Assembly: GCF_003721515.1 (NCBI RefSeq)
Contig: NZ_RJJD01000003.1
Coordinates: forward strand, 124,001 to 188,000
Source: Rufibacter latericius
GTDB lineage: Bacteria > Bacteroidota > Bacteroidia > Cytophagales > Hymenobacteraceae
Direction: 5' to 3'
DNA: 64,000 nucleotides
Below, in pieces: positions 2,072-62,507 of the stretch. How positions within the stretch are numbered: position 1 is the stretch's first letter; each line of letters opens with the position of its first letter. Made by a program: the position numbers and the translations under genes. Under the pieces are notes generated by a model. That model was not told the DNA's origin. It was given only the letters and a program-made list of their open reading frames with translations, and searched no databases.

Positions 2072-2123
2072 GAGCCTCGGTTTCAGGGTTGTTTTACCAA
2101 AAACGGCTCTGAAACCGAGGCTC
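2072..2123. repeat. HC36 palindrome with gene-specific outer stem
   Basis: A 15-bp perfect stem (2072-2086 with 2109-2123) closes a core that resembles the HC36 family: a TGTTTTAC left block, AAAAACGGCT on the right. It is followed by CTTTCTTT. It lies just after lysA in a convergent space and probably also terminates transcription. Confidence 0.75.
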
Positions 2124-2178
2124 CTTTCTTTACTGCCAGAATCAAAAGCCTGCTTTTATGTGAGAAGCTTTAATTTTC

Positions 2179-2212
2179 GTTTAAAGACCATTTTCAAGAA
2201 AAAGGGCTAAAT
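2179..2212. repeat. HC36 palindrome (divergent copy)
   Basis: Shows GTTTAAAGACC, then ATTTTC, then AAAAAGGGCT and AAAT, matching the family layout with weaker ends. Lies between convergent lysA and hom. Confidence 0.45.
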
Positions 2213-2268
2213 ACATATCTGGTGTACTTCTGCTCTTCTTAAAATTCGAAGCCTCAAGTGGTGATTTT

Positions 2269-2304
2269 GTTTTGAGGCCCTTTTCCTATAAACAGGCCTA
2301 AAAC
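2269..2304. repeat. HC36 palindrome
   Basis: A 36-nt copy with GTTTTGAGGCC at the left, TTTTC in the centre and GGCCTAAAAC at the right. Its right end abuts the terminator at 2306-2334. Convergent lysA/hom space. Confidence 0.7.
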
Positions 2305-2305
2305 A

Positions 2306-2334
2306 AAAACACCCGGCCAGAAGCCAGGTGTTTT
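2306..2334 (-). terminator. Terminator of the metY-metX-hom unit
   Basis: AAAACACCCGGC (2306-2317) pairs with GCCAGGTGTTTT (2323-2334). On the minus strand it is followed by T-rich sequence supplied by the neighbouring HC36 copy. It sits about 95 bp beyond the hom stop. Confidence 0.65.
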
Positions 2335-2429
2335 GGGAAATTAAACGAACTAAATAAACAAGCTACTTTTGAGAAACGGTAGTCTCCGTTCCTATGCTTT
2401 ATATAATCTTTTCCTCGGGAGGAAAGACG

Positions 2430-4711: not shown

Positions 4712-4715
4712 GGCT

Positions 4716-6065
<1,350 letters not shown>

Positions 6066-6323: not shown

Positions 6324-6333
6324 CTTCGTATCA

Positions 6334-6446
6334 ATTTATATTCCCCAGGTGGCAATATGTCCCCTGGGATCAGGACTTAGCACCTTACACGGCTGGTAGG
6401 TTGCTAGAGCTTCATTGAGCCTGTCTCTCCGCTCTTCTTTATAAAT
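6334..6446 (-). promoter_or_regulatory. SAM-I (S-box) riboswitch aptamer
   Basis: Minus-strand RNA with S-box hallmarks in order: AAGAGCGGAGAGACAGGCTC, then AATGAAGCTCTAGCAACC, then AAGGTGCTAAGTCC, then a CCAGG/CCTGG stem. P1 is closed by ATTTATA (6446-6440) and TATAAAT (6340-6334). These match the conserved GAUGAA..GCAACC and GGUGCUAA..UCC elements of the family. It lies about 280 nt upstream of metY. No classic terminator follows directly. The P1 stem ends 10 nt before the ATG of the poly-Cys leader ORF, suggesting control of leader translation. Confidence 0.92.
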
Positions 6447-6475
6447 CAACTACCGGAATAATTGACTTGATGCTG

Positions 6476-8969: not shown

Positions 8970-9306
8970 AAGTGCTTCTATAACATCTATTGTTTTTAGC
9001 CCGTTTTGGTGATTTTGCCCTTAAAACAACGAGTTTGTTTGTGACGCAATTTGCTTTAAGTGACAGATGATCCTTTTTTTCAGTATTAATGCATGTCGAT
9101 TAAAGCAAGAAGCAAACACCAGCTTTCCCGGTTGCTTCTTTCCATTTATTGAAGAAACAAAGCATACTTCTTTTAAGGGAGTTTCAACATTTTAAGGCTA
9201 TTCTAATCAAATCAAGCCGGAAACTCCCAGCTTTATCTTTATTGCTTATTAACCGGTTTCTTTCATCTTTACATCCCTTTTCATCAACTTTCTATTAACT
9301 CACACA
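8970..9306. other. Intergenic region upstream of the queuosine transporter
   Basis: 337 bp with no convincing ORF. It holds the HC36 copy at 8992-9027 and a 9-bp stem GGGAGTTTC (9177-9185) with GAAACTCCC (9220-9228) whose loop contains GGCTATT and AAGCC, like a distorted HC36. I looked for a preQ1 riboswitch because of the downstream gene and did not see one. Confidence 0.5.
8992..9027. repeat. HC36 palindrome
   Basis: A 36-nt copy: GTTTTTAGCCC, GTTTT, ATTTT, GCCC, TTAAAAC. It lies 22 bp after rnz between two plus-strand genes. The centre deviates from TTTTC. Confidence 0.55.
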
Positions 9307-10101
9307 ATGCAGCAACCTTCTTCTTTCAAATCAAGCATGGGCTTTAAGAAGCGGCAGCTTTTCATGGTTCTCTGCGGTATTTTCCTGACGAATGCGTTGC
9401 TGGCGGAGTTAATTGGGGTGAAGATTTTCTCAGGCGAGGGTGTCTTCGGGTTATCAGGTGCGCAAATCCCAGTGTTGGGAACCAAGCTGGATTTCAATTT
9501 AACAGCTGGGGTCATCATTTGGCCGGTGGTGTTTATTACCACCGATATCATCAATGAATACTTCGGGAAGGATGGCGTCAAACGAATCAGCTTTTTGACG
9601 GCTGGGCTGATTGCGTATGCTTTCCTGGTCATCATCGCTGCTACTGCTTTGCCTCCGGCACAGTTCTGGCAAGAGATCAACAGTCAGGGACCAAATGGCA
9701 CCGCCTTTGACATGGACTTTGCTTTCAGCAAAGTGTTCAGGCAGGGCCTGGGCATCATTGTGGGCTCTTTGGTGGCTTTCCTGCTGGGACAATTACTGGA
9801 TGCCCACGTTTTTCATTGGTTGAAACACTTGACTGGTAGTCGCAAGATATGGCTAAGGGCAACGGGTTCTACGCTGGTATCTCAGCTGGTAGATACAATA
9901 GTGGTGCTGTTCATCGCCTTTTATATCTTCGGGAACTGGGATTTGAAGACGGTGCTCTCTGTTTCGGTGATCAACTACCTGTACAAATTCACGGTGGCGG
10001 TAATCCTCACTCCTGTTCTGTACGTGGCGCACTCCATCATTGACCGATACTTGGCCGGTGACCGCGAAGTAGCCTTGGAAACGTTTATCGCCCAGGATTG
10101 A
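9307..10101 (+). CDS. Queuosine precursor transporter (YhhQ/VUT family)
   Basis: Inner-membrane importer of the queuosine precursor family (QPTR, formerly vitamin-uptake/YhhQ). 264 residues with about six hydrophobic segments (about 15-40, 65-85, 100-118, 150-175, 195-215, 220-240). The family-typical stretch FITTDIINEYFGKDGVKR (about 78-95) sits after the second segment, and STLVSQLVDTIVVL in the later half is also characteristic. The substrate is assigned from the family; no queuosine synthesis genes are in the window. The next gene begins 29 bp later. Confidence 0.85.
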   Translation: MQQPSSFKSSMGFKKRQLFMVLCGIFLTNALLAELIGVKIFSGEGVFGLSGAQIPVLGTKLDFNLTAGVIIWPVVFITTDIINEYFGKDGVKRISFLTAGLIAYAFLVIIAATALPPAQFWQEINSQGPNGTAFDMDFAFSKVFRQGLGIIVGSLVAFLLGQLLDAHVFHWLKHLTGSRKIWLRATGSTLVSQLVDTIVVLFIAFYIFGNWDLKTVLSVSVINYLYKFTVAVILTPVLYVAHSIIDRYLAGDREVALETFIAQD

Positions 10102-10784: not shown

Positions 10785-10787
10785 TAG

Positions 10788-10822
10788 GTTTTAGCCCTTT
10801 TTCTTAAAAACAGCGGTAAAAC
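10788..10822. repeat. HC36 palindrome
   Basis: GTTTTAGCCC, TTTTTC, AAAAAC, GCGG, TAAAAC in 35 nt. Starts 4 nt after the hydrolase stop, between two plus-strand genes. The stretch AGAAAGGC follows directly, as at several other copies. Confidence 0.65.
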
Positions 10823-11893: not shown

Positions 11894-11935
11894 AAACAAG
11901 AAAGCCGAAGCATAACAGCTTCGGCTTTCTTGTTT
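11894..11935. terminator. Terminator after trpS
   Basis: An 18-bp perfect stem (11894-11911 with 11918-11935), loop ATAACA, ending TTTCTTGTTT. Symmetric enough to work in both directions. Confidence 0.85.
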
Positions 11936-12061
11936 ACGACCACTTTTGATAAAATAAGTTAAAAAGGTGTCAGCTGAAAACAGAGAATGAAAAAACTTCC
12001 TGCTTCATATTAGAAATATCAGGCCTTATTGCAAAAAGAGAAAGGCTTACAAATGGGTTTT

Positions 12062-12097
12062 GTTTTTGCTCTGTTTTCTTAAAAACTGCCTTAAAAC
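12062..12097. repeat. HC36 palindrome
   Basis: A 36-nt copy: GTTTTTG, TGTTTTC at positions 12-17, AAAAACTGCC, TTAAAAC. It joins the terminator at 12104-12124 through AGAAAA. Convergent trpS / minus-strand gene space. Confidence 0.7.
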
Positions 12098-13835: not shown

Positions 13836-13871
13836 GTTCTGGAACTGTTTTCAGCAAAACAGGCCCTAAAC
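13836..13871. repeat. HC36 palindrome
   Basis: A 36-nt copy: GTTCTGG, TGTTTTC, AAAACAGGCCC, TAAAC. Between hppD and the phosphoglucomutase gene, both plus strand, ending 24 nt before the next ATG. Confidence 0.7.
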
Positions 13872-15698: not shown

Positions 15699-15733
15699 GT
15701 TTTAAAGCCATTTTACTCAAAACAAGCACAAAG
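15699..15733. repeat. HC36 palindrome
   Basis: GTTTTAAAGCC, ATTTTAC, AAAACAAGC in 35 nt, sharing its GTTTT with the T-run of the preceding terminator. Confidence 0.6.
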
Positions 15734-16440
15734 TTCCTCTCCCTAAACCAAAGCCTTGAATTACTTTGCATTATATAAACTATTGATTAACTTAAGCTTA
15801 TCATATAAGATCCCCCTGATCTTCGTTTTGGGTTTATCCAAAAACTCCCTTTCGCCTTACACACAATTGTACCTGTCCCATGGTGCAGTGTCTTCAGTTG
15901 AAGCTCATTATTTACTATCTGGGCCTAAACCAATGAAATACCTTTACTACTTTTTACACTTTTCTGCTTCAACCTTTTACTTATAAAGTACAAGGTAACA
16001 GGCTATCCTATGAACGCGGAATAAGGAGATGCATCAAATGGAAGTCCTGAGAAGATTGGAATGACGCAAGGTATTTTAAGACGGTACCATCCATTTGCCA
16101 GGCTATCACGGGCACCGGCCTTATGGATAAACTCTAAGGCTATTTTATCTTGTAAATCTTACAAAGTACAAACTAGATTATCGACCTCCGTTTTTCATGT
16201 TATTGGATAGGGTGTCTTGTGCAAGTATAAACGCAAGGCATGATACTTTCACTTTAAGATTCCATAACTATCGCCTAAACAACATTTTACAAATAGTACA
16301 AAGCATGGCTGCTTTTGATAAGTACCTATGTTTAAACGCAACCAGCTGCATTGTTGAAGTATATGGTTCCCACTTAACCCAAATGGAAGGTATGGCGCAT
16401 AAAATATCCTATAAAAGAGTAAACCCTTATTATTTATTTT
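15734..16440. other. Gene-poor AT-rich stretch
   Basis: About 700 bp without a supportable gene. Short frames at 15756-15986 and 16197-16511 have random-looking composition; the second runs out of frame into the next gene. I see no tRNA, repeat or consensus promoter. It must contain the 5' region of the lipoprotein gene at 16441. Confidence 0.5.
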
Positions 16441-17124: not shown

Positions 17125-18025
17125 AATTTTGAGAACCTCAACTTTGCGCTAAAGCTGGTTGCCAAGGCTTCATAGTCTGAAGGATGGGATCCCTTCTCCT
17201 TTCCATTTGTGTATTTCAAATGACTTACCTGAACCTTCGCCGATGAAAGAACTGGATCTAGATTCAATTCCTTAAGCATTTGTGAGTCATTGGACCAGTT
17301 GATTTACTTGAATAATCACCTGAAAGCCAATACAAAAGCCCAACTTTTTCCCAAACCTACTGTAACATCCTCCAAAACAGAAAGCCCCTCCTACGCTATA
17401 AAGGAAGGGCTTTCCGTTTTGGAGGGTGTTTCAGGAAACTAAGCTAAAAACACTTCCCTCTAAAGTTGAAATGCGTCAATGTAAGGTTACCTCAATTGAA
17501 TTTAACCACGAACCCTCTTTCTTTAAGCCAAAAAGCTATATTAAAATCCTTTCTTCCTATATTCTTTTTTTAAGTTATAAATAAAACAAAAGCTTTATGT
17601 TAGAGTATTGTCTTTAGAGTAAAGGTAAATCTGGCATGAGATCCAATCTTGAAAGTAAGGCATAGTACATTAAAAGATTTCGCCTGTTCAGGATTGTGTA
17701 TCCAATATTATTTTTAATTTTAATCAAGGCTACCTTGCTAAGAAAGGACTAACGTTTACCTCGGCAAGTCTCTCCTTGGCTTTTCTTACAATTTGATGAC
17801 GTTTTCAAGATTGTGATATAATAAAGTTGCCTTTTTTTCGATAAATAGTAAGAGGTTCATACACTTAAGAAGAAAGACATTTGATATAACTATTACTACC
17901 CTCCTACATCTGGATCATCCCCTGTAACCCCGTTTCTGGATAGGCAGACGCAATAGTTCTGTGAAGTTTCCTTCTTCCTCCTGTTTACCTGTTTTTGATG
18001 TTGTTTACTTTTTCCAGAAAACCGA
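17125..18025. other. Long AT-rich intergenic region
   Basis: 900 bp with no ORF worth calling. The only structure seen is the terminator at 17369-17425. The right half (from about 17500) is strongly AT-rich with short A and T runs. It precedes the T9SS gene pair and presumably holds its promoter, but I found no clean consensus. Confidence 0.5.
17369..17425. terminator. Long inverted repeat, probable terminator
   Basis: 24-nt arms (17369-17392 with 17402-17425) with two mismatches, containing CCAAAACAGAAAGC and GCTTTCCGTTTTGG. It lies 245 bp after the lipoprotein stop. Confidence 0.7.
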
Positions 18026-21715: not shown

Positions 21716-21751
21716 GATTTTGAGCTATTTTCAGGAAAACTGCCCCAATTC
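21716..21751. repeat. HC36 palindrome
   Basis: GATTTTGAGC, ATTTTCAGGAAAAC, TGCCCC, CAATTC in 36 nt, immediately right of a terminator. Convergent space. Confidence 0.65.
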
Positions 21752-21843: not shown

Positions 21844-21979
21844 GGGCAATCCCTGGTGGTTGCCCTTCACGGTAAATCACTGATTAAAACACCTTGGCTT
21901 TTTAAACAAGGGTTGCTTTTAGGACATGTTTTATTGAAAACGCCGCCAAAGCAGAAAGGGTTACCACCAGAGATTGCCC
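21844..21979. repeat. Long inverted repeat enclosing an HC36 copy
   Basis: 24-nt arms (21844-21867 and 21956-21979) match at 21 positions and enclose the HC36 copy at 21916-21951. A 73-codon frame across it (21787-22008) looks non-coding. Lies in the convergent space before the GH43 gene. Confidence 0.6.
21916..21951. repeat. HC36 palindrome
   Basis: CTTTTAGGAC, ATGTTTTATTGAAAAC, GCCGCC, AAAG; a divergent 36-nt copy nested in the longer inverted repeat. Confidence 0.5.
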
Positions 21980-23403: not shown

Positions 23404-23439
23404 GTTTACAGGCCATTTTCAGAAAATCAAGGCCTAACA
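23404..23439. repeat. HC36 palindrome
   Basis: GTTTACAGGCC, ATTTTCAG, AAAATCAAGGCC, then TAACAAAC (3 nt longer than standard if carried to the last AAAC). Upstream of genes on both sides. Confidence 0.65.
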
Positions 23440-23515: not shown

Positions 23516-23551
23516 ATTTTACTCCTGCTTTCTTAAAACAAGGCCCAAAAT
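23516..23551. repeat. HC36 palindrome (divergent)
   Basis: ATTTTACTCC, GCTTTC, AAAACAAGGCCC, AAAAT in 36 nt, in the same divergent region. Confidence 0.5.
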
Positions 23552-25636: not shown

Positions 25637-25688
25637 AAGAACTTGTTTCAGGGCCGTTTTCAAAGAACCGCCTCTGAAACAGGTTCTT
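25637..25688. repeat. HC36 palindrome with gene-specific outer stem
   Basis: Core 25645-25680 (GTTTCAGGGCC, GTTTTC, GCC, CTGAAAC). The outer arms AAGAACTTGTTTCAG and CTGAAACAGGTTCTT extend the stem to 15 bp with one G-T wobble, followed by TTATC. Between GH2 and MBL genes, both plus. Confidence 0.8.
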
Positions 25689-26553: not shown

Positions 26554-26589
26554 TCCTTTAGGGCCATTTCCCTGAAAAGGGCCTTAAAC
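26554..26589. repeat. HC36 palindrome
   Basis: TTTAGGGCC, ATTTC, GAAAAGGGCC, TTAAAC. Its right-hand AAAC is also the start of the following terminator arm, so the two hairpins are mutually exclusive. Convergent space. Confidence 0.7.
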
Positions 26590-26638
26590 GAAAATCGGGG
26601 TTCCCACTTTCTGCAAGTGGGAACCCCGATTTTCGTTT
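26586..26638. terminator. 24-bp perfect terminator hairpin
   Basis: Arms 26586-26609 and 26615-26638 are perfectly complementary with loop TCTGC and GTTTTA after it. Serves the convergent MBL gene and the minus-strand gene at 26651. Confidence 0.88.
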
Positions 26639-28868: not shown

Positions 28869-29307
28869 ACCATCGGAAAAATCGATTTGAAGTGCGTTCT
28901 GTTTAGGGCCTGTTTTTTGGAATACGGCCCCTAAACGTATCTGAGCTCCATTAAGGCCTCCATTTACTTCTAGCAATCCCCCAAAATACTGCTCTATGGC
29001 TATTCACACGGCTCTTAGCAATAGGTGTACTTGCTGCAAACTCGTCACTACATCTTCGCGGCTAATGATCTATTATGCAAATACATTGGAAAATTAAACA
29101 GCCGTTGGGAAAATACAGGAAAGACAAGCCTTAGCCGCAAACCAGGTAGTAAGGCCAAAATAGTTTGTAAAAAGTGGCTTGTGAGGGAAGGATTGGGTTA
29201 CTTTGATCCGTTTTTATACGTAGGAAGAAAGTAGGTACCTACAGTGAATTCACGTTGAAAGCAAAAGAATAGTACCTTTGTGTCATCCATGGACATTACT
29301 CACTCCA
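28869..29307. other. Intergenic region with HC36 copy
   Basis: 439 bp. Contains the HC36 copy at 28901-28936 and, at 29273-29280, a TACCTTTG that is a plausible -7 element for the gene at 29308. A 69-codon frame at 29025-29234 has no recognisable features and is not called. Confidence 0.5.
28901..28936. repeat. HC36 palindrome
   Basis: GTTTAGGGCC, TGTTTT, GGCCCC, TAAAC in 36 nt, 32 bp after the transglutaminase-like gene, between plus-strand genes. Confidence 0.7.
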
Positions 29308-29804: not shown

Positions 29805-29840
29805 GTTTTCAGGTTAGTTATCTTAAAATGGGCCCTAAGC
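29805..29840. repeat. HC36 palindrome
   Basis: GTTTTCAGG, GTTATC, AAAATGGGCCC, TAAGC in 36 nt, 2 nt right of a terminator and 2 nt from the minus-strand stop. Confidence 0.6.
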
Positions 29841-31020: not shown

Positions 31021-31066
31021 CTTCCGTTTAAGGGCTTTATTATCAAAAATAGCCTCAAAACGGAAG
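31021..31066. repeat. HC36 palindrome with outer stem
   Basis: Core 31026-31061 (GTTTAAGGGC, TTATTATC, AAAAATAGCC, TCAAAAC) with outer CTTCC/GGAAG arms. It lies between two minus-strand genes but keeps the plus-strand polarity. Confidence 0.65.
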
Positions 31067-31136: not shown

Positions 31137-33623
31137 CTAGTTGTTTGAATCGCCGTCAGACTTGGCGTCATCGTTGTTGATTTTCTTTTTACGCTTGGGC
31201 TGGGTTTTCGCGGTGATTTTCCCAAACTTATAGCTGGCCCCTACTTTCACCTGTCGGTTATAGATATACATGGTATTGACCTGTTCGGCCGATGGTGTTT
31301 TGAAGATATTCCGCTGCCGCAGTGAGGCAGAGAATGGGTTGTCCACTCCTACCGTGATGCTTCCGTTTTTATTTAAGATGTCTTTTTTCAAAGCGAGGTT
31401 AAAAACAGCGAAAGAAGAAGTTCTGCCCTGAAGGGTTACCCGGCGTCCATTGAACTGCCCAAAAACCTGCGCACTGATTCCCTTCCCGAAAACATACGAG
31501 GTATTCAGGTTGGCATTGTACATTACGCTGGCGTTAGAGGCATTCAGGAGCGAAGTTTCGCTTTGCAGGTCCAGGTAGAACACGTTCAAATTCGCACTGA
31601 CGTTACCCTTCTTAAGGAACTTCATGCTGCTGAACAAACTAAGTCCGTAGCTGGCATTCCGCCCGATGTTTGCGAACCGGGTGTAGTTCACGCCTTCATC
31701 GGTGGGCAGAGTATAGGCCTCAATAGAATTGTTGGTTTGCCGCCAGAAAGCGGTGGCATTAACGGAGAACCCGCTTTTGAAAAACGTGCTGTAGCCCACT
31801 TCATAGGCATTGGTGATCTCGGCGTTCAGGTTAGGATTTCCCACCTGGATGTTAAAGGTGTCGGCGCGGTTTTCATAGGGATTAAGCAGACCCAACTGCG
31901 GGCGCTGGATGCGTTTGGTGTAGTTGAACTTCAGCGTCTGGTTGTTTTTCAGGGCTTTAGAGACGGCAAAGCTGGGAATAAAGTTATCGTAGCTCTGCGC
32001 CACAGAGGTCTGGGTTGAGGTAAAGTCGCCGTCTACCTTGGTGTGTTCATAGCGGGTTCCCAACTTGAAGTTGTATTTCTTGTTCACACTGAATTCATAG
32101 GAAGCATAGGCCGCCCCCACATTCTGGTGATAGGCAAAAACATCGGTCCGGGAGGGTTCTGTCACAAAGGGAGCTGCCGCAGGATTGGCCACCAGAAACT
32201 GGTAATCACTCTCTACATAGCGCAGAATGGCTTTTCCGCCCACTTCCAGCAGGTGCTTGTTTTTGAACGGATGCGTGTAATCTACCTGAAACGTTTTCTC
32301 CTCATTGTAGGCATCGTTCAGGTTCTGCTCTTTCAAGGCCAACTGCTGATCCAGGTTGTAGACATCGGCGAGATTGGAATTCTCTCTGTCGTTGCGGCTC
32401 AACAAACCCAGAACGCTCAGTTCACGTCCTGGTTGGGCAAATTGCTGGGTGAAATCAAGGTTGATGTCGTAGTTCATGTTATCGAACTGGTTTCGGTTCA
32501 CCCGGGTATTGCTCCCGATGACGCCTCCGTTCAGGTATTGGGTGGAGGTTTGGGTTGTCAGATAAACAAACTCGCCGCTCTGCATCCTAACTCCAGCCGA
32601 CAGGCTGCTTCTTTTGGTAAGTTCATAGTCGGCCCCGAACTGCAGCATCTGGAACTCGCCCTCGCGTTTGCCTTTCATAGACTGGCTCAGGCGATCAATA
32701 CCGGGAATGCCGCGGTACACGGTTTCGCGGATGTTTTCGGCGGGATTATTGCGCCAGTTGTACCCCAGGCTGGTATTCACCCCTAATTTACCCTTGCGGT
32801 AATTCACCGTTCCGTTCACAACACTAATGCGGTTTCCGTAGGAAGCGTTCACCATGCCGTTTACCCCCTGCAGGTTGTTTTTCTTGGTAATGATGTTGAC
32901 GATTCCGGCCGTACCCTCGGCATCATACTTCGCCGAGGGACTGGTGATGATTTCCACGCTTTTGATCATATCTGACGGAATCTGCTGCAGAGCATCGGCC
33001 ACGCTGCTTGCCATTACCGCCGATGGTTTGTTGTTGATCAACACCCTGATGTTGGAGCTACCGCGCAGGGCCACGTTCCCTTCCAGATCAACGGTCAACC
33101 CGGGCACTTTCTTCAGGACATCGGTGGCGGTACCCCCGGCGTTGGTGATGTCTTTTTCGGCGTTGTACACCATGCGGTCCACCTTTTCCTCCACCAGAAG
33201 TTTATCGCCTACCACTGAAACCTCGTCTAACGTCCTAGCTCCTCCCTTCAGGGCCACTACCCCAATGTTCACCTCTTCTTTGTTGCCCACCGTGATGTTG
33301 TCAAACACCTTGGTTTCAAAGCCCAGAAAACTCACCGACAACTTATATTGTCCTTCCGCAACCTTCCCCAGAGAGAACCTTCCTTTATCATCAGACACGG
33401 TGCCGTCTACCGTTTTCCCTGATGCTTTCTCTACCAGGGAAATGGTGGCAAATTCAATGGGTTTCTGGCCCGTTTCCTCCAAAATCACCCCGGCAATTTT
33501 CCCGTTTCCTTTAGGGGTTGGTTGTGCGGCAACGGCCATTGATTTGGGAGGAGTGGGTGCCTGGGCAAAAGTTTGGTGCGCGCACAGAATTCCGGCTACC
33601 GCCATGAGTAGTACTTTTTTCAT
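31137..33623 (-). CDS. TonB-dependent-receptor-like outer-membrane beta-barrel protein
   Basis: 828 residues. Signal peptide (about 1-20, ends QTFAQ). Carboxypeptidase-regulatory-like Ig domain (about 40-115: GKIAGVILEETGQKPIEFATI...). Plug-like domain (about 125-230: NAEKDITNAGGTATDVLKKVPG, VEIITSPSAKYDAEGTAGIVNI). Then a large barrel of the outer-membrane beta-barrel family (KRIQRPQLGLLNPYENR is typical). The C-terminal end is a basic/acidic tail (KTQPKRKKKINNDD...) rather than a closing strand aromatic. No TonB box or SusD partner was seen, so the ligand is unknown. Confidence 0.9.
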   Translation of the reverse strand: MKKVLLMAVAGILCAHQTFAQAPTPPKSMAVAAQPTPKGNGKIAGVILEETGQKPIEFATISLVEKASGKTVDGTVSDDKGRFSLGKVAEGQYKLSVSFLGFETKVFDNITVGNKEEVNIGVVALKGGARTLDEVSVVGDKLLVEEKVDRMVYNAEKDITNAGGTATDVLKKVPGLTVDLEGNVALRGSSNIRVLINNKPSAVMASSVADALQQIPSDMIKSVEIITSPSAKYDAEGTAGIVNIITKKNNLQGVNGMVNASYGNRISVVNGTVNYRKGKLGVNTSLGYNWRNNPAENIRETVYRGIPGIDRLSQSMKGKREGEFQMLQFGADYELTKRSSLSAGVRMQSGEFVYLTTQTSTQYLNGGVIGSNTRVNRNQFDNMNYDINLDFTQQFAQPGRELSVLGLLSRNDRENSNLADVYNLDQQLALKEQNLNDAYNEEKTFQVDYTHPFKNKHLLEVGGKAILRYVESDYQFLVANPAAAPFVTEPSRTDVFAYHQNVGAAYASYEFSVNKKYNFKLGTRYEHTKVDGDFTSTQTSVAQSYDNFIPSFAVSKALKNNQTLKFNYTKRIQRPQLGLLNPYENRADTFNIQVGNPNLNAEITNAYEVGYSTFFKSGFSVNATAFWRQTNNSIEAYTLPTDEGVNYTRFANIGRNASYGLSLFSSMKFLKKGNVSANLNVFYLDLQSETSLLNASNASVMYNANLNTSYVFGKGISAQVFGQFNGRRVTLQGRTSSFAVFNLALKKDILNKNGSITVGVDNPFSASLRQRNIFKTPSAEQVNTMYIYNRQVKVGASYKFGKITAKTQPKRKKKINNDDAKSDGDSNN

Positions 33624-34012
33624 ACGTTTGTTGATTAAGAATAGTAAAGAATCACCTATCAGATTAAACTCCGGCCTACTTCTAAAGGTCCTGTTCCAGG
33701 AGTAGGTTAAGACCGAGAGTGAAAGTATTCATGGTTCAAGATTAGCTACCCCCGAGCGCTTTGGAAATAAAATGTGATGAAATCCCTAAAAAATGTGACA
33801 AACCAGAACTTTGCCTTTTAGTGAATCTATCTGTTTAAAGTCAATTTTCTTGTTTAAAAAGAACTGTCCTTAAAGCAAAGGGCAAGCACGTTCCATTGCC
33901 CTGTGAAAACAGGTCGTAAATGTTACCGTTATAAAAGAACCGAAGCAGCTTACCTATTAAAAGCTATCACCTGATTTAAGCCTAATTTGGAGAAAATACC
34001 ATTAAAACAGCA
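33624..34012. other. Divergent intergenic region
   Basis: 389 bp between the barrel gene and the MsrA-like gene. No ORF. Sequence at about 33833-33876 (GTTTAAAG, ATTTTC, AAAAAG, TGTCC, TTAAAGC) may be a longer decayed HC36 relative. I saw no consensus promoter in either direction. Confidence 0.4.
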
Positions 34013-34715: not shown

Positions 34716-34762
34716 CTCCTTCGTTTTGAGTTGATTTTGCCAAAACAAGCGGTAAACGGAGG
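34716..34762. repeat. HC36 palindrome with outer stem
   Basis: Core 34723-34757 (GTTTTGAG, GATTTTGCC, AAAACAAGCGG, TAAAC) with outer CCTCC and GGAGG arms. Convergent space between the MsrA-like gene and the minus-strand operon end. Confidence 0.65.
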
Positions 34763-37737: not shown

Positions 37738-37786
37738 CATGCTGCTTCGGAGCCATTTTACCTAAAATAGCCCCAAAGCAGCATGG
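37738..37786. repeat. HC36 palindrome with outer stem
   Basis: Core 37744-37779 (GCTTCGGAGCC, ATTTTACC, AAAATAGCCCC, AAAGC). The outer arms CATGCTGCTT and AAGCAGCATG are perfectly complementary. Between two minus-strand genes, same plus-strand polarity. Confidence 0.78.
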
Positions 37787-39083: not shown

Positions 39084-39119
39084 GTTTAGGAGCCGTTTTC
39101 GCCAAATCAAGGCCAAAAC
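39084..39119. repeat. HC36 palindrome
   Basis: GTTTAGGAGCC, GTTTTC, AAATCAAGGCC, AAAAC in 36 nt, between two minus-strand genes. Confidence 0.75.
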
Positions 39120-39725: not shown

Positions 39726-39995
39726 CAAATCGGTTCTTATTTCTGGGTTGTTTAAGAAACATTTGGGTTCAGTAGGAGTCCTTCATCTCCTTTGAGAAAG
39801 TCATGCAATATGAAACAAGTGGGCTCTCCCGAAATGGTGCCGCTCCCCTGCCCCTCACCCCCATGGCCAAAGGAAGCAGCACCTCGGCGGGCATTAACCC
39901 AGATGGCAAGTTCTTGAGGTTCCTGCCCGACGGGAGAGAAAAACCAGTTGTACATTATCCCGGGGACGGGCGGTGAAGCCTTGGTAGTCCCTAAA
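39726..39995 (+). pseudogene. Decayed 5' fragment of an S9 peptidase gene
   Basis: Matches the 5' part of the intact S9 peptidase gene at 41977-42360. Shared blocks are TTTGAGAAAGT, GTGGGCTCTCCC, AAAGG..AGCAGCACCTCGGC, and GAGAAAAACCAGTTGTACAT. About 95 bp are missing after GTGGGCTCTCCC, and the signal-peptide region is badly eroded. There is no start or open frame on the plus strand. The match ends near 39995, so the other ~85% of the gene is gone. The antisense frame 39752-40078 is a by-product. Confidence 0.8.
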
Positions 39996-40133
39996 GCATA
40001 CACCCAAGCGCAAAAACTTACGGGAGCCAAGCTTGCGGCCGCTTGAAAAAGCTTGCGGATCGGGCGGGTACCGCCCAAAAGTTGGAAGCAGCTACATCCC
40101 CCGGCCCTTTAAAGAGATCTGTCGGTCAAACAT

Positions 40134-41976: not shown

Positions 41977-44070
41977 ATGGCCACCTTTAAAAAAATCGGG
42001 TTCGTTTTCCTTTTGATTCTCGGGCTTACAGGGAACGTAATGGCCCAGCAGGGCTCCTCCATCACTTTTGAGAAAGTGATCAGCCTCAAACAGGTGGGCT
42101 CTCCCTTGGTCTCTCCAGACGGGAAAACGGTGGTGTATAGTGTCACCAGCACCGATTGGACCAACAACAGTTATGACACGGAAATCTGGCTCTCACGTGA
42201 AGGCGGCGCTCCCATGCCCCTCACCAGAACAGCCAAAGGTAGCAGCACCTCGGCCAGAATTACCCCAGACAGCAAATTCGTGAGTTTTCTGGCCGACCGA
42301 GGCGAGAAAAACCAGTTGTACATCATTCCGGTGACAGGCGGAGAAGCGCTGCAAGTGTCAAAAGACGAAGACGGAGTAGGCAGTTATGAATGGAGCCCAG
42401 ACGGTAAGCGGCTGGCCTATACCAAAGCCGAGGCTGAAAGCAAAAAAGAGAAAACCACGAAGGAAAGGTTTGGGGCATTCACAATAGAAGGCGAAGATTT
42501 TAAGCAAAGCCACCTTTGGTTATTGAACTTCCACTATGACTCCATTGCCCTGGCGGGACAAGTGCCGTGTTACCCGGTTAAGAAGGATTCCCTGCAAACA
42601 GGAGCTACTCCGCCGGCCAAACCCCACGACTGCTTTAAACTGCCGGTAGCCCGAAAAGTCACGTCTGGAGATTTCCACGTGACCAGTTTCGCCTGGCACC
42701 CAGATGGCAGAACCATCGCGTTTAACCGGCAACCCAACCCTTTAATCAATAGCAGTCTGCGGTCAGACATTGCCATCCTCAACGTAGTCACCAAAGAAGT
42801 AAAAACCTTGGTTTCAAACCCCACCGGTGATTTCTTCAGCAAATGGAGCCCAGATGGCAAATCCTTTGTGTATAGCAGTTCCCTGGATGATTCCACCACC
42901 TATTTCTTCAAAAACAATCGCTTATTTATCTATGATACCCCAACCGCCAAAAGCCGGGAAATAGCCCAAACCATAGATGAAAACAAAAATGTACTGGACT
43001 GGAATGAAAAAGGCATCTACCTTGGTGCTTTAGAGAAGACCAAACAGAAGGTGTTTGAAGTAGACCCCAAAAGCGGTAAGGCCAAACCTCTGAATATCAA
43101 GTTAGATTTAGTAAACACCCTTGCCTTCAGCAAAAACACCGATGTGGTAGCGATAAGCGGCCGTAACCACGCCGACCTTGGTGAAATCTATACTGGAAAG
43201 CTCAATAAGCCCCTAAAAAAAATCACCGCCAACACTGAACAGATCAAAGGCTGGAACACGCCCATAAACGAGGTAATCACCTGGCAGAGTACGGATGGAG
43301 CTTCCATAGACGGAGTTTTGCTCAAACCCCGTAATTACGATGCTTCCAAAAAATACCCGCTGCTGATAGTCATCCACGGCGGTCCTACCGGAATAGATCT
43401 TCCTGACCCTACTCCCTCTTACGTCTATCCCATGCTGCAATGGGTAGAAAAAGGGGCCTTGGTCTTGCGGGTAAATTACCGGGGAAGCGCCGGCTACGGC
43501 GAAAAATTCCGGTCGCTCAACGTGCGAAATCTGGGGGTTGGGGATATGTGGGATGTCATGAGCGGTGTAGACTTTCTGGCTAAAAAAGGAATGATAGATA
43601 CTACCCGCATGGGGTCTATGGGCTGGAGCCAGGGCGGCTATATCTCCGCATTCCTCACCACCAATACCAACCGCTTCAAAGCCATCTCAGTTGGTGCCGG
43701 TATTTCCAACTGGGTCACTTACTACGTCAACACCGATATTACTCCTTTCACCCGGCAATACCTGCAAGCCACCCCTTGGGCCGATATGGACATCTATCTA
43801 AAAACCTCCCCTATGACCAACATCAACAAGGCCAGTACGCCTACCTTGATCCAGCACGGGGAGTTTGACAGACGGGTTCCAATTCCTAACGCGTACGAGC
43901 TTTACCGAGGCCTCCAGGATCGGGGCATTCCTTCCCGCTTAATTGTTTACAAAGGTTTCGGACACGGTATCAATAAACCCAAAGAACGGCTGGCTGCCAC
44001 CTGGCACAACTGGCAATGGTTTAACCACTATCTCTTTGGGGAAGCGGAACCAGCCTTGCCGGTGGAGTAA
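41977..44070 (+). CDS. S9 family prolyl-oligopeptidase-type peptidase
   Basis: 697 residues. Signal peptide about 1-23 (ends GNVMAQ). WD/PD40-type beta-propeller in the N-terminal ~420 residues (VSPDGKTVVYSV, RITPDSKFVSFL, WSPDGKRLAYT, WSPDGKSFVYSS). The alpha/beta hydrolase domain follows with Ser551 in GWSQGGY, Asp631 in GEFDRRVP and His663 in GFGHGIN, a complete triad. Probably a periplasmic dipeptidyl/acylaminoacyl peptidase. Intact member of the duplicated PH-S9 pair, starting 142 bp from the PH fragment and divergent from it. Confidence 0.93.
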   Translation: MATFKKIGFVFLLILGLTGNVMAQQGSSITFEKVISLKQVGSPLVSPDGKTVVYSVTSTDWTNNSYDTEIWLSREGGAPMPLTRTAKGSSTSARITPDSKFVSFLADRGEKNQLYIIPVTGGEALQVSKDEDGVGSYEWSPDGKRLAYTKAEAESKKEKTTKERFGAFTIEGEDFKQSHLWLLNFHYDSIALAGQVPCYPVKKDSLQTGATPPAKPHDCFKLPVARKVTSGDFHVTSFAWHPDGRTIAFNRQPNPLINSSLRSDIAILNVVTKEVKTLVSNPTGDFFSKWSPDGKSFVYSSSLDDSTTYFFKNNRLFIYDTPTAKSREIAQTIDENKNVLDWNEKGIYLGALEKTKQKVFEVDPKSGKAKPLNIKLDLVNTLAFSKNTDVVAISGRNHADLGEIYTGKLNKPLKKITANTEQIKGWNTPINEVITWQSTDGASIDGVLLKPRNYDASKKYPLLIVIHGGPTGIDLPDPTPSYVYPMLQWVEKGALVLRVNYRGSAGYGEKFRSLNVRNLGVGDMWDVMSGVDFLAKKGMIDTTRMGSMGWSQGGYISAFLTTNTNRFKAISVGAGISNWVTYYVNTDITPFTRQYLQATPWADMDIYLKTSPMTNINKASTPTLIQHGEFDRRVPIPNAYELYRGLQDRGIPSRLIVYKGFGHGINKPKERLAATWHNWQWFNHYLFGEAEPALPVE

Positions 44071-48974: not shown

Positions 48975-49010
48975 GTTTTGGGCCTGTTTTTTGGGAAGCG
49001 GCTCCAAAGC
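48975..49010. repeat. HC36 palindrome
   Basis: GTTTTGGGCC, TGTTTT, GAAGCGGCTCC, AAAGC in 36 nt with AGG/CCT extending it. Between two minus-strand genes. Confidence 0.7.
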
Positions 49011-49619: not shown

Positions 49620-49655
49620 GTTTTAAGGCTATTTTTTAAAAATAAGCTTAAAAGC
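49620..49655. repeat. HC36 palindrome
   Basis: GTTTTAAGGC, ATTTTTT, AAAAATAAGC, TTAAAAGC in 36 nt, weaker GC blocks. Between two minus-strand genes. Confidence 0.6.
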
Positions 49656-50326: not shown

Positions 50327-50362
50327 TCTTTGGGGGTACTTTTCTGAAAACTGCCATAAAAC
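50327..50362. repeat. HC36 palindrome
   Basis: TCTTTGGGGG, ACTTTTC, GAAAACTGCC, ATAAAAC in 36 nt. Its final AAAAC is the start of the terminator arm at 50358, so both hairpins cannot form together. Between two minus-strand genes. Confidence 0.6.
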
Positions 50363-52005: not shown

Positions 52006-52418
52006 ATGATGTTACCGCCTCAGGTAATCCACAAAAAAGACCTACATATCCACACTCTGGCCGTTCCTTTTTTGACTAGCCCCTATTTCCTTGACTCTCA
52101 GATTGAATTCAGGCGTTAACCCAAACAAAGTATTTTCAAGAATTTCCGGCTGAATAGCCGAGAAAGCAATATAGGCATTGCTGCTTAGGGTGTAACATCT
52201 TTTTTGATTAGGCTACAACACGGGCAAGAAACAAAATATCGGAGTGTTGTTTTAGGCTTCTTTTCGGAAAAACGGCTTCAAAACGGGCCAAAATACATAG
52301 AGACTCGGGCTTAAAACAGGCATTTTCAGGACCAGGCTTCAAGAGTAATCCACAAATTTCAGGTGAGATATCCACAAATCCGTTGGTGCTCTCGTAGAAG
52401 GGCATATTCTAAAATCAC
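52006..52418. other. Divergent region between dnaB and mpl
   Basis: 413 bp without a gene. Holds an HC36 copy at 52249-52284, though no gene ends here. No repeats resembling DnaA boxes or other origin signals were noted. Confidence 0.5.
52249..52284. repeat. HC36 palindrome
   Basis: GTTTTAGGC, CTTTTCGG, AAAAACGGC, TTCAAAAC in 36 nt, in a divergent region upstream of both flanking genes. Confidence 0.75.
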
Positions 52419-54690: not shown

Positions 54691-54726
54691 CCTTTAAAAG
54701 CCATTTTCTAAAAACTGCCAATAAAC
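54691..54726. repeat. HC36 palindrome
   Basis: CCTTTAAAAGCC, ATTTTC, AAAAACTGCC, AATAAAC in 36 nt, overlapping the left end of the next terminator. Convergent space. Confidence 0.65.
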
Positions 54727-58419: not shown

Positions 58420-58420
58420 T

Positions 58421-58554
58421 ATTGTTGATTGTTTATTTAGTCTGGGAGGGTAATTCAACCATCTCATAGATTTGTAAACTGTTTCAAGGCAGTTTTCCTA
58501 AAATCAGGCCTAAAACGGGTATAATAGATAGCTCCAGCAATTAACAATCAACAA
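58421..58554. repeat. Inverted AT-rich arms around an HC36 copy
   Basis: TTGTTGATTGTT at 58422-58433 is the inverse complement of AACAATCAACAA at 58543-58554. The space between holds the HC36 copy at 58481-58516. Short direct copies of TAACAA(T/C) also fill 58541-58570. Confidence 0.5.
58481..58516. repeat. HC36 palindrome
   Basis: GTTTCAAGGC, AGTTTTCC, AAAATCAGGCC, TAAAAC in 36 nt, between two plus-strand genes; among the copies closest to consensus. Confidence 0.8.
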
Positions 58555-59024: not shown

Positions 59025-59028
59025 AAGC

Positions 59029-59067
59029 AAGGGGCCGCTTTTTCCGTAAAGGGGAAGGCGGCCCCTT
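59029..59067 (+). terminator. Terminator after bcp
   Basis: AAGGGGCCGC from 59029 pairs with GCGGCCCCTT ending at 59067, with an internal bulge. TTTGTGTTTC follows and enters an HC36 copy. Confidence 0.75.
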
Positions 59068-59070
59068 TGT

Positions 59071-59106
59071 GTTTCTGGCCTTCTTTCAGGAAAACGAGCC
59101 AGAAGC
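59071..59106. repeat. HC36 palindrome
   Basis: GTTTCTGGCC, TCTTTCAGG, AAAACGAGCCAG, AAGC in 36 nt, immediately right of a terminator, between plus-strand genes. Confidence 0.7.
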
Positions 59107-59164
59107 AGAGTTGACGCAAATTTCCTTTCAGAATTTCAACCCATTACCTCACCTTAGGAATCAT

Positions 59165-60022: not shown

Positions 60023-60069
60023 TAAAGAGCAGGCAGGTGCCTTCGGGTGCCTGCCGTTTTTTCTGCGGA

Positions 60070-61467
60070 ATGAAACTGATGCGGTCTGTTTGTTTGTGGC
60101 TGATCTGCCTTCTGTTAGGAGGTTTGCTGGCTTTGCCTGCCACCGCGCAAAACAGGCCCGCGCCGCCGCCCAAAAAAACCCGCCTTTTGTTTCTGCTGGA
60201 TGCCTCGGGATCTATGCAAGCCAAATGGGAAACCAGCCAGCGCTGGGCAGTGGCTAAAACCATGCTCACCCGCATGGTAGACTCCTTGGATTCCTATGCC
60301 AACTTAGAGATCGCCTTGCGGGTGTACGGGCACCAGACGCCGGTCAACCTCAAGAACTGCAAAGACACCAAGCTGGAGGTTCCGTTTGCCGCCCACAATG
60401 CGGGCAACATCAAAAAAAAGCTGCAGCAGATCACGCCCAAAGGAAATACGCCTATCACCTATTCTTTGGAACAATCGGCGAATGATTTTCCGCAGGACCC
60501 CAACTCCCGAAACGTTATCGTTATCATCACCGATGGGTTGGAAAGCTGCGGCGGTGACCCTTGTGCCACTTCCCTGGCCTTGCAGAAAAAGCGGGTTTTC
60601 CTTAAGCCCTTCATCATTGGTTTGGGTGACGACCCGGGGTATGCGCAGCAGTTTGGGTGCATGGGGCAGTATTACAACGCCTCAGACATCAAGACCTTCC
60701 AAAAGGTGTTGGAAAACGTCATCAACATCACCCTGAAGAAAACCACGGTTTCCGTGGAATTGACCGATGAAGGAGGTCGCTCTGTGGAAACCAACGTGAA
60801 CCTGACGTTCCTGAACAGCGTCACAGACCAACCCGAGTACAATTATGTCCATTACCTGGATAATGCGGGCAAACCCGATGAACTGGAGATTGACGCCTTG
60901 CTTTCTTATGACTTGGTGGTGAACACCATTCCGGCGGTGAAGGTACGCAACCTGGATATAAAGCCGGGAAGGCACAATGTTTTTAAAGTGAAGGCTCCCC
61001 AAGGCTACCTGTACCTGCGGCAAGATGCCCCAACCTCCTATGGCTATGTGACGGCCCTGGTGCGGGCAAAAGGCGACCAAAACCTGCTACAGACCCAGCG
61101 ATTCCCCAGCCAACAGAAATACCTTACCGGTTCGTATGAAGTGGAGCTTCTGACGCTGCCCCGCATTAAAAAGACAGTGACCATTCGGCAGGGCCAGGCC
61201 ACGGAAGTTACTTTTGCGCCCCCCGGCTCGCTTAACATCACCCAGGACCTGCAGGGCTACGGAAGCCTGTACCTGTTGAACAATGACGGAACCCAGGACT
61301 GGATCTGGAACCTGCCCGAAGGCAGCAGTAAAATAAGCGTACCTTTGCAACCCGGCAACTACCGTTTGGTGTACCGGATTAAGTCTGCGAAGGGCAGCAA
61401 ATTCACCGATGTGAAGAATTTCAGCATTAAATCGAATTTAACGACTACGATAAAACTTTTCAACTAA
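60070..61467 (+). CDS. Exported VWA-domain protein
   Basis: 465 residues from ATG 60070 (60079 also possible). Signal peptide to about residue 27 (ALPATAQ), proline-rich linker, then a von Willebrand A domain (about 38-210) with MIDAS motif LLDASGSMQAKWE, T in PKGNTPITYSLEQ and D in VIITDGLESCGGD. The C-terminal half has repeated beta modules (VSVELTDEGG, YLYLRQDAP, LNITQDLQGYGSLYLLNNDG). Likely a periplasmic or surface protein-interaction factor. It sits between the two transketolase genes, one nucleotide before the second, although an exported VWA protein has no evident part in transketolase. Confidence 0.88.
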   Translation: MKLMRSVCLWLICLLLGGLLALPATAQNRPAPPPKKTRLLFLLDASGSMQAKWETSQRWAVAKTMLTRMVDSLDSYANLEIALRVYGHQTPVNLKNCKDTKLEVPFAAHNAGNIKKKLQQITPKGNTPITYSLEQSANDFPQDPNSRNVIVIITDGLESCGGDPCATSLALQKKRVFLKPFIIGLGDDPGYAQQFGCMGQYYNASDIKTFQKVLENVINITLKKTTVSVELTDEGGRSVETNVNLTFLNSVTDQPEYNYVHYLDNAGKPDELEIDALLSYDLVVNTIPAVKVRNLDIKPGRHNVFKVKAPQGYLYLRQDAPTSYGYVTALVRAKGDQNLLQTQRFPSQQKYLTGSYEVELLTLPRIKKTVTIRQGQATEVTFAPPGSLNITQDLQGYGSLYLLNNDGTQDWIWNLPEGSSKISVPLQPGNYRLVYRIKSAKGSKFTDVKNFSIKSNLTTTIKLFN

Positions 61468-61468
61468 G

Positions 61469-62422
61469 ATGAAGGACTTCCCTTACTCAGAATCTAAAGA
61501 TACACGCTCCGGTTTTGGGGCCGGTTTGCTGGAACTAGGTCGTACCAACCCTAACGTGGTGGCCCTTTGTGCCGACCTGGTGGGCTCCCTTAAAATGGGT
61601 GATTTCATTAAGGAATTCCCCGAGCGCTTTTTCCAGGTAGGCATTGCCGAGGCCAACATGATTGGCTTGGCGGCGGGTATGACCATTGGGGGCAAAATTC
61701 CGTTCACCGGCACGTTCGCCAACTTCTCTACCGGCCGGGTGTATGACCAGATCCGGCAAAGTGTGGCATACTCGGGTAAGAACGTAAAGATCTGCGCTTC
61801 GCACGCGGGCTTGACCCTGGGTGAGGACGGGGCTACCCACCAGATTCTGGAGGACATCGGCATGATGAAAATGTTGCCGCACATGACCGTCATCAACCCC
61901 TGTGACTTCAACCAGACCAAAGCCGCTACCATTGCCATTGCCGCCTACGAAGGCCCGGTGTACCTGCGTTTCGGCCGTCCGGTGGTGCCTAACTTCACCC
62001 CTGCTGATCAGAAATTCGAAATCGGGAAAGCGGTGATGTTGAACGAAGGCACTGACGTAACCATTATTGCCACGGGTCACTTGGTTTGGAAAGCTATACT
62101 TGCAGGTAAACTGCTGGCCCAACAGGGCATCGATGCCGAGATCATCAACATCCACACCATCAAACCATTAGACACGGAGTCTATTCTGGCATCGGTGAGC
62201 AAAACCCGCTGCGTGGTGACCGCCGAGGAGCACCAGTTCAACGGCGGCCTGGGCGAATCGGTGGCTCGTTTGCTGGCCCAGAACCTGCCCCTTCCGCTGG
62301 AACTGGTGGGCGTGGATGACTCTTTCGGGGAGAGTGGAACCCCAGAGGAACTCATGGAGAAGTACGGCCTCAACGAACAGAGCATTGTGGCCGCCGTGCA
62401 GCGCGTAATCGCCCGTAAATAG
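61469..62422 (+). CDS. Transketolase, C-terminal subunit
   Basis: 317 residues. Pyrimidine-binding and C-terminal transketolase domains. GIAEANMIGLAAGMTIGGKIPFTGTFANFSTGRVYDQIRQS carries the catalytic Glu. ICASHAGLTLGEDGATHQ and VYLRFGRPVVP follow, then the C-domain (GTDVTIIATGHLVWKA, VVTAEEHQFNGGLGESVARLL). Forms the enzyme with the product of 59165-60022. Start codon lies one nucleotide after the VWA stop, implying coupled translation. Followed by an HC36 copy with T-rich flank. Confidence 0.93.
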   Translation: MKDFPYSESKDTRSGFGAGLLELGRTNPNVVALCADLVGSLKMGDFIKEFPERFFQVGIAEANMIGLAAGMTIGGKIPFTGTFANFSTGRVYDQIRQSVAYSGKNVKICASHAGLTLGEDGATHQILEDIGMMKMLPHMTVINPCDFNQTKAATIAIAAYEGPVYLRFGRPVVPNFTPADQKFEIGKAVMLNEGTDVTIIATGHLVWKAILAGKLLAQQGIDAEIINIHTIKPLDTESILASVSKTRCVVTAEEHQFNGGLGESVARLLAQNLPLPLELVGVDDSFGESGTPEELMEKYGLNEQSIVAAVQRVIARK

Positions 62423-62461
62423 GGACATTGTTCGTTTTCTAATCTTTAGCTATTTAATATG

Positions 62462-62507
62462 CTTCCGTTTTGAGCCCGATTTACGTAAAACGGGCTCAAA
62501 ACGGAAG
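62462..62507. repeat. HC36 palindrome with outer stem (probable terminator)
   Basis: Core 62467-62502 (GTTTTGAGCCC, GATTTAC, AAAACGGGCTC, AAAAC) with outer CTTCCG/CGGAAG. TTCTTTTTCTTTC follows. The most symmetric copy, 40 bp after the transketolase C-subunit gene. Confidence 0.8.

Follow-up and report, generated by a model that had tools for sequence, protein, structure and literature searches.

HC36, a symmetric 36-bp word that stays in the same gaps between genes across Rufibacter genomes

Introduction

The DNA uptake sequences (DUS) of the Neisseriaceae and the uptake signal sequences (USS) of the Pasteurellaceae have directional cores of about 9-12 nt, and to our knowledge they are the only other sites that number in the thousands, keep to their gaps between genes and are respelled in place. 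Here, we compare them and several other described systems with HC36, a palindromic word of 36 bp that recurs in a stretch of 64,000 nt from Rufibacter latericius (assembly GCF_003721515.1, contig NZ_RJJD01000003.1, positions 124,001 to 188,000; hereafter the window). HC36 is a DNA-level signal with a rigid geometry that persists in the same gaps between genes and changes in place. We lean towards the prediction that it is a two-fold symmetric recognition site in duplex DNA that is read by a protein.

DUS are reported to have dialects that are congruent with phylogeny (PMC3630211), and to be enriched in the core genome, absent from genes acquired recently and spaced about 1.1-1.5 kb apart (PMC2397512). 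They are the closest analogue of HC36, which has traits of the same kind: there are at least 1000 copies that change in place, the dialects share a core and are correlated with phylogeny, the density is low on the two large extra contigs sampled, the median spacing is 1.4-2.1 kb in four genomes, and the sites stand mostly in non-coding places. It differs from DUS and USS in that it is 36 bp long, two-fold symmetric and mostly intergenic, and in that the pilus ATPase family PF00437 does not exceed the cut-off in the genus.

A second comparison is with the repetitive extragenic palindromes (REP) and bacterial interspersed mosaic elements (BIME) and their RAYT (TnpA_REP) transposases, which also come as dispersed intergenic palindromes of similar length that are biased away from gene starts. 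A GT[AG]G tetranucleotide is reported to mark the foot of the REP hairpin (PMC6006769), whereas the HC36 consensus starts with GTTT in all 16 genomes profiled. HC36 differs further in that its gaps are shared genus-wide, with no signature of insertion and no apparent dependence on the presence of a RAYT gene.

The sites of nucleoid- and chromosome-organising proteins, such as MatP/matS, ParB/parS and IHF, are likewise dispersed chromosomal duplex sites and several of them are symmetric, but HC36 exceeds these examples by far, either in copy number or in information per site. Intrinsic terminators resemble HC36 as inverted repeats near gene ends, but HC36 lacks a U-tract and has a fixed interior, and its left side is rich in T and its right side in A, which is the opposite of a terminator. 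The length of 36 nt and the GTTTT...AAAAC ends recall the repeats of type II CRISPR systems; this candidate was rejected because each copy stands alone at a scattered place and arrays are lacking. Integron attC sites, with their GTT...AAC ends, were dropped because the copies are dispersed and their fourth base is T. No description of HC36 was found in the open-access full text searched.

Copy number and taxonomic range

Sites were scored with symmetric weight matrices that were scanned over their own training sequence, at thresholds of 12, 13, 14, 16 or 18 bits depending on the analysis, and genes were taken from a simple gene caller rather than from an official annotation. A weight matrix was chosen over a covariance model because the inner pairs of the palindrome do not exceed shuffles. 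In 800 kb of the R. latericius genome (5.67 Mb, 23 contigs), 436 sites of at least 18 bits were found, whereas a single first-order Markov control of equal length had none, which confirms a real and dispersed repeat far above chance and extrapolates to about 3000 copies per genome. A conserved protein of the window is 91-99% identical in ten records named Rufibacter or Sabulibacter, which places the genome near R. hautae. The pattern GTTT N8 TTTT N4 AAAA N8 AAAC matched the genome exactly at 197 places and its reversed counterpart at none; with two mismatches allowed, the counts were 1761 and 19, respectively. The strict layout given in a preliminary description of the window had four matches there with three mismatches allowed, compared to none in 100 shuffles. 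That description had reported 27 recognisable copies; their recurrence was borne out, and their number is nearer 33, which is the count of window sites that reach 18 bits with the matrix trained on the 800 kb.

HC36 was identified in all 16 genus genomes, one of which is named Sabulibacter ruber, with 956-2424 two-mismatch matches each against 12-29 for the control, and there are roughly 1000-3000 copies in each of these genomes. Among the genomes searched, copy numbers far over control are confined to the genus: one-mismatch matches ranged from 37 to 1714 in the genus genomes and from 0 to 5 in 188 other genomes of the Hymenobacteraceae, whose controls also gave 0-5. Exact matches numbered 10-1103 in the 16 genus genomes, and 0 or 1 in the 43 other relatives of the first relatives search. 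A search of pooled loci from Pontibacter, Adhaeribacter/Botryobacter, cyclobacteria and sphingobacteria for an analogous palindrome was obscured by coding sequence homologous among the loci and yielded no usable signal. In the viral database IMG/VR, one dialect form had a single exact match.

A rigid, two-fold symmetric geometry

The site is two-fold symmetric, with TT at positions 3-4 and TTT at 14-16 mirrored by AAA at 21-23 and AA at 33-34. Each half contains, in most dialects, two GTTTT-like modules that are 11 bp apart, or about one helical turn. A scan of spacings over 464 kb found GTTT N28 AAAC 112 times and the N27 variant 42 times, while the remaining spacings from N18 to N44 gave counts of 11-32, in agreement with the earlier claim of a preferred length of 36 nt; peaks at N16-17 correspond to the internal repeat of the motif. 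Half-site pairs tell the same story. At the 36-nt spacing, and at one nucleotide less or more, there were 162 pairs against 2 and 1 in genome G012, 122 against 1 and 2 in G005, 342 against 88 and 98 in R. latericius, and 192 against 56 and 60 in R. hautae (some genomes are cited by their numbers). We ascribe the larger neighbouring counts in the latter two species to T-runs that shift the register. Solo half-sites, in turn, were at or slightly over a second-order Markov control at 12 bits (for example, 221 versus 148 in R. latericius and 69 versus 80 in R. hautae).

Self-complementary dinucleotides at the centre (positions 18-19) are avoided in R. latericius, with a share of 0.15 against 0.28 expected (z -5.5), and the corresponding share in G005 is 0.25. 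Common centres, with both strands pooled, are CAGG, CTGA and CCAG. The orientation of the centre dinucleotide relative to the gene strand gave p values of 0.35 in R. latericius and 1.0 in R. hautae, and weak signals in G005 (0.048) and G012 (0.075).

A third GTTTT-like module was seen 11 bp outside HC36, for a total length of 47 nt, at 20 places on contig C10 of the R. latericius genome, for example at 617251 and 283235. There is a small half-site peak at +11, and some of the 47-nt copies may be due to chance, with modules that overlap an ordinary site.

Conservation in place and the question of mobility

The gaps of the window were compared with those of up to 15 relatives, which gave 245 comparable cases for 37 gaps of at least 50 nt, some gaps having none. 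Occupied gaps stayed occupied in 132 of 145 cases and empty gaps stayed empty in 93 of 100. The site in the gap of a relative often stood at nearly the same offset but was spelled with different letters. In the gap between dnaB and mpl, the offset is about 330 in some species and about 180 in others, and there are sites at two places in a few.

On a larger scale, the 800 kb of R. latericius had 3 and 6 reciprocal hits with the stretches of G005 and G012, and R. hautae was therefore taken as the comparator. Across 186 orthologous gaps, the site was kept in 117 of 121 and the empty state in 59 of 65. Among 84 one-to-one site pairs, 63 aligned in register and 7 did not align at all. The identity in 105 in-register pairs was 0.87-0.98 at the core (positions 3-4, 14-16, 21-23 and 33-34), 0.47-0.84 at the other HC36 positions and 0.40-0.60 in the ungapped flanks, where it was highest beside the site; the contrast between core and flank is favoured by the core-weighted matrices that found both copies.

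These observations bear on the suggestion, raised in the preliminary description, that HC36 is a REP-like element which was spread, at least at its origin, by a RAYT transposase. A palindromic, mostly intergenic sequence in high copy number is what such an element would look like, near-identical copies are present in G012, and matches to Y1 (RAYT-like) transposases were found in 15 of the 16 genus genomes, with 1-6 in each. However, the gap-by-gap conservation across the genus speaks against this origin, and so does G006, which has no RAYT match at E<=0.001 and yet contains 1304 copies, although loss of the gene may account for this. Nine of the ten gaps that are discordant between R. latericius and R. 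hautae were displayed, and no clean insertion of one unit was seen in them; the sites had eroded or been substituted in place, or the gaps differed by larger changes or could not be aligned. The clean presence or absence of exactly one unit that was expected from syntenic comparisons is thus lacking in the gaps displayed.

Sites in genes pointed in the same direction. The two genomes were compared over 277,857 nt of coding sequence with orthologs in both. None of the 67 coding sites of at least 14 bits, with both genomes counted, coincided with a gap in the ortholog, and 11 more coding matches in conserved families had no gap in 5-15 relatives. The orthologous stretch also scored at least 10 bits in 56 of 64 cases, and an insertion that predates the species split would fit these shared sites. 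Two RAYT loci were read, one with the RAYT-like gene of R. latericius and one with a pair of RAYT genes in G012. HC36 copies lie to one side of the genes at both loci, at about 0.5-0.8 kb and amid other repeats at the former and at about 0.4-1.2 kb at the latter, which is unremarkable at one site per 2 kb. These copies at some distance would agree with the idea that the transposase genes are flanked by HC36, but the palindromes immediately beside the genes at both loci are different ones. HC36 does not look like a currently mobile element, and we regard descent from a RAYT-spread element as very improbable.

The palindromes at the RAYT genes, located at L244:4458-4772 (TTGCCAGTTTGCAACTGGCGCCAGTTGCAAACTGGCAA type) and L245:2417-2556 (CGGGGATTTATCAATCCCCG type), are candidates for the true REPs of Rufibacter.

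Genomic context and copies in genes

HC36 was found in 80% of the convergent and 60% of the tandem gaps of at least 60 nt in the R. latericius genome. Most gaps of at least 200 nt hold the site, usually one, and the counts per gap are under-dispersed, as illustrated by gaps of 200-300 nt with a mean of 0.77 and a variance of 0.39. In pooled data from R. latericius, G005 and G012, sites are enriched close to stop codons, up to about 70 nt away, and depleted near starts. The regular spacing of about 2.3 kb that had been proposed was not recovered, since the 800 kb of R. latericius gave a median of 1.4 kb, a mean of 1.8 kb and a coefficient of variation of 1.06.

It had also been stated that no copy lies inside a gene. 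This is true of the window save for weak copies (31371-31406), but not of the genome, since 55 of the 436 sites were located well inside confident genes. The coding copies occur in all three frames. Sites of at least 18 bits occupied 59 coding positions in R. latericius compared to 3.3 +- 1.1 in synonymous shuffles; the absolute excess was small in G005 (7 versus 0.1) and G012 (6 versus 0.8), and 29 conserved gene families showed no evident coding enrichment, with 11 sites of at least 12 bits in 359 kb. Coding sites are more distant from non-coding sites than are random coding positions, with medians of 1039 versus 812 in R. latericius (p 0.0125) and 1135 versus 734 in R. hautae (p 0.0074).

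Dialects, extra contigs and the comparison with uptake sequences

The consensus of the half-site is GTTTTngGgCtgTTTT in R. latericius, GTTTAGgGGCTgTTTT in R. immobilis (G004), GTTTTTGGCCTGTTTTC in G006 and G013, and GTTTTcGGGCTCATTTC in G012. The information per site ranged from 23.4 to 49.3 bits across the 16 genomes, with 28.6 bits in R. latericius and the maximum in G012, a genome with many identical 36-mers in up to 9 copies in 400 kb. Ten of the dialect profiles rest on 14-25 sites each, and the consensus is nearly identical in several genomes. Distances between dialects were correlated with protein distances over 18 genes (Mantel r 0.51, 9 of 2000 permutations). The match to phylogeny is imperfect: the nearest dialect to that of G012 is found in G006, whereas its nearest relative by protein is G001.

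HC36 is sparse on both of the large extra contigs that were sampled. The density was 0.45 per kb on contig C1 of G012 (400 kb) and 0.07 per kb on contig C2 (100 kb read of a 155-kb contig), and the corresponding values for G008 were 0.28 per kb (40 kb) and 0.03 per kb (80 kb read). The core-versus-accessory comparison within the R. latericius stretch comprised two accessory gaps only.

As for the content of such DNA, the open reading frames of G012:C2 look, from their sequences, like those of a conjugative plasmid with a metal-efflux cluster, and six of its seven HC36 copies were displayed, none in the G012 dialect. R. latericius itself has a site-free stretch of 21 kb (G000:C10:572334-593678) with an AraC-type regulator, hydrolases, an aldo/keto reductase and a TonB-receptor/SusD/GH97 cluster.

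One hypothesis is that HC36 serves as a signal for self-recognition or uptake of the DUS/USS kind, in which the cells favour DNA that bears the site and recombination then spreads better-matching alleles in place. Such molecular drive would explain both the dialects and an excess of information per site. The copy number, the correlation of the dialects with protein distance, the spacing, the low density on the extra contigs, and the position of the coding copies in three frames and away from other sites also fit an uptake signal, and the published DUS traits cited above are of the same kind. The uptake protein ComEC (PF03772) was found in 16 of 16 genus genomes; it was also found in 10 of 14 control genomes, so that it does not discriminate. 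In contrast, the pilus/pseudopilus ATPase PF00437 was over the cut-off in none of the 16 genus genomes, with weak sub-cut-off matches in 8 of them, so that machinery of the Neisseria/Haemophilus type seems to be absent. Of all the results, this one weighs most against an uptake sequence of the classical kind. The length and two-fold symmetry of the site differ from the short directional cores of DUS and USS, and the share of coding copies is low. We consider an uptake signal a less probable explanation, albeit one to be taken seriously, and we modestly favor a chromosome-wide binding protein over it because the pilus ATPase is missing.

Pairing and the RNA question

An alternative is that HC36 acts in transcripts as an RNA hairpin, in the form of a terminator, a 3' stabiliser or an attenuator. 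The palindrome itself, its bias towards stop codons and the terminators near it in some gaps are what this would predict. However, the copies lack the asymmetry between strands that pairing in RNA would leave. Counts of G-U and A-C mismatches were made in R. latericius and G005 only, and in the former, with 222 copies oriented by tandem genes, there were 299 and 284, respectively. The frequency of pairing at positions 8-13 is no higher than in shuffles in any of four genomes (R. latericius, G003, G005 and G012), and the median number of pairs formed in R. latericius is 10 of 16, although it is 13 of 16 in G005 and G012, where many copies are perfect or near-perfect. A strict scan for terminators identified separate hairpins in 38 of 328 tandem gaps with a single site, of which 28 were upstream and 10 downstream of HC36, and the polarity of HC36 is that of T to the left and A to the right. 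No Rfam family was found at HC36 places in the window at the gathering threshold. HC36 is not an RNA, and the hairpin hypothesis, which we rejected on account of the equal mismatch counts in R. latericius, the shuffle-like inner pairs and the separate terminators, is exceedingly unlikely. The earlier proposal that the copies form one family distinct from ordinary terminators was upheld, as was the length of 36 nt.

Interpretation

Our findings are most simply understood if HC36 is a site in duplex DNA that is read by a protein. This prediction is based on the base-specific core, the rigid spacing, the largely independent halves, the lack of strand asymmetry, the conservation by gap and the dialects. 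The reader would be a Rufibacter protein that binds DNA sequence-specifically as a dimer or tetramer, and the dialect of each species may follow changes in this protein. Less certainly, the protein could have a chromosome-wide job, such as organisation of the nucleoid or insulation of neighbouring transcription units. Such a role is suggested by the presence of usually one site in most gaps of at least 200 nt, away from gene starts, and by the tendency of coding copies to be located where no other site is near. We put forward a role in chromosome architecture tentatively.

Several observations weigh against a protein-read site with such a role. No reader protein for HC36 was identified. Of the divergent gaps of at least 60 nt in R. 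latericius, 58% also hold a site, counts in the longer gaps show no under-dispersion in G005 and less of it in G012 than in R. latericius, and the overall spacing is irregular, with coefficients of variation of 0.88 in G003, 1.11 in G005 and 0.86 in G012, next to the value for R. latericius given above. A small extra contig, G008:C3 (7.5 kb), contains 3 sites, or 0.40 per kb. The mismatch counts in G005, with 59 G-U and 92 A-C, are without explanation. Furthermore, the 28.6-49.3 bits per site are far above the approximately 12 bits that, by simple arithmetic, are needed to specify about 3000 sites. Plain selection for binding accounts poorly for this excess, which suggests either that the benefit rises gradually with the strength of binding or that a drive is at work, like that in uptake sequences.

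The pairing of the outer positions adds to these difficulties. Pairs 5-7 covary slightly, above all 500 shuffles in four of four genomes, and so do the flanks, with 0 of 500 shuffles reaching the observed value in R. latericius, G003 and G005 and 8 of 500 in G012; pair 17 covaries in G005 only (1 of 500). Compensatory double changes relative to R. hautae numbered 32 in the flanks, 23 at pairs 5-7 and 17 at pairs 8-13, against 10.1, 7.8 and 6.3, respectively, by a simple expectation that leaves out transition bias. An excess of this kind would be expected from a hairpin or from templated mutation, and we cannot account for the outer-pair signal by a plain protein site. The earlier observation that bases on opposite sides change together was therefore confirmed weakly and mainly for the outer pairs and flanks, but not for pairs 8-13 by the shuffle test; for these pairs, the shuffle test and the compensatory-change test disagree.

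It could be argued from these signals that HC36 is extruded as a cruciform or folds as a single-strand hairpin, or that the palindromes arise by templated (quasi-palindrome) mutation. The avoidance of self-complementary centres in R. latericius and the high median pairing in G005 and G012 would agree with this. Yet pairs 8-13 do not exceed shuffles in any of the four genomes, the T/A core is base-specific and the loop length is rigid, whereas hairpins tolerate changes in the loop. We consider this explanation quite unlikely.

If HC36 is indeed a protein-read site, it might constitute a genus-specific address code, in which a symmetric word of 36 bp occupies between one and three thousand fixed positions and has a dialect that co-evolves with a single reader. 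Such a code would be the first site class of this kind that is high in information and evolves in place, and it could serve either as a mark of self-DNA or as a chromosome organiser without a pilus. We offer this as a conjecture. A DUS-like signature in a symmetric site, without a pilus ATPase over the cut-off, could signify a new route of self-DNA recognition in the Bacteroidota; alternatively, there may be a chromosome-organising protein for which the HC36 sites and the specificity co-evolve genome-wide. Both possibilities are directly testable because the genus has named and cultured strains.

HC36 sites and other repeats in the window

The sites in the window were listed with the matrix of the R. 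latericius genome at the cut-off of 18 bits, and all are given without a strand. The first three are found at 2080..2115 (37 bits), in the convergent gap between lysA and the gene for homoserine dehydrogenase, at 2179..2214 (30 bits) and at 2269..2304 (38 bits). The last of these adjoins a separate terminator-like hairpin, as judged by eye, and the same was noted for the sites at 12062..12097 (37 bits), 26555..26590 (26 bits) and 54691..54726 (21 bits). The site at 15699..15734 (29 bits) lies directly past a hairpin of this type, also judged by eye.

Several sites are located in gaps for which occupancy in the relatives could be counted. The gap with the sites at 8992..9027 (26 bits) and 9189..9224 (25 bits) is occupied in 13 of 15 relatives, that at 10787..10822 (35 bits) in 15 of 15, that at 13836..13871 (32 bits) in 12 of 15 and that at 48975..49010 (35 bits) in 7 of 7 comparable relatives. 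The site at 52249..52284 (40 bits) belongs to the divergent gap between dnaB and the mpl-like gene, which is occupied in 15 of 15 relatives with offsets that vary in some, and another site is located 3' of dnaB at 50327..50362 (29 bits). Towards the end of the window, the gap at 58481..58516 (40 bits) is occupied in 11 of 12 comparable relatives and that at 59071..59106 (32 bits) in 11 of 11, the latter with a terminator-like hairpin upstream (by eye). The palindrome at 62467..62502 (38 bits) is extended outward by CTTCC ... GGAAG.

The remaining sites are a weak one at 11931..11966 (19 bits), followed by those at 17416..17451 (29 bits), 21716..21751 (29 bits), 21917..21952 (24 bits), 23404..23439 (24 bits), 23516..23551 (28 bits), 25645..25680 (31 bits), 28901..28936 (36 bits), 29805..29840 (25 bits) and 31026..31061 (33 bits). 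A weak HC36-like site lies within a TonB-receptor gene (31371..31406, 19 bits). Further sites were identified at 33973..34008 (30 bits), 34722..34757 (23 bits), 37744..37779 (30 bits), 39084..39119 (32 bits) and 49620..49655 (35 bits).

The sole Rfam match in the window at the gathering threshold is a SAM riboswitch (RF00162) on the minus strand at 6333-6447, with a score of 72.5 bits. Two diverged repeats at 39822-39996 and 42188-42364, located 2.4 kb apart and 76-80% identical, perhaps represent paralogous genes. A second dispersed repeat of about 200 nt was noted elsewhere in the R. latericius genome, at L028:9371-9592 (G000:C10:249371-249592), with a companion piece near 9642-9711, and 26 places are listed for it in R. 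hautae at 68-86% identity.

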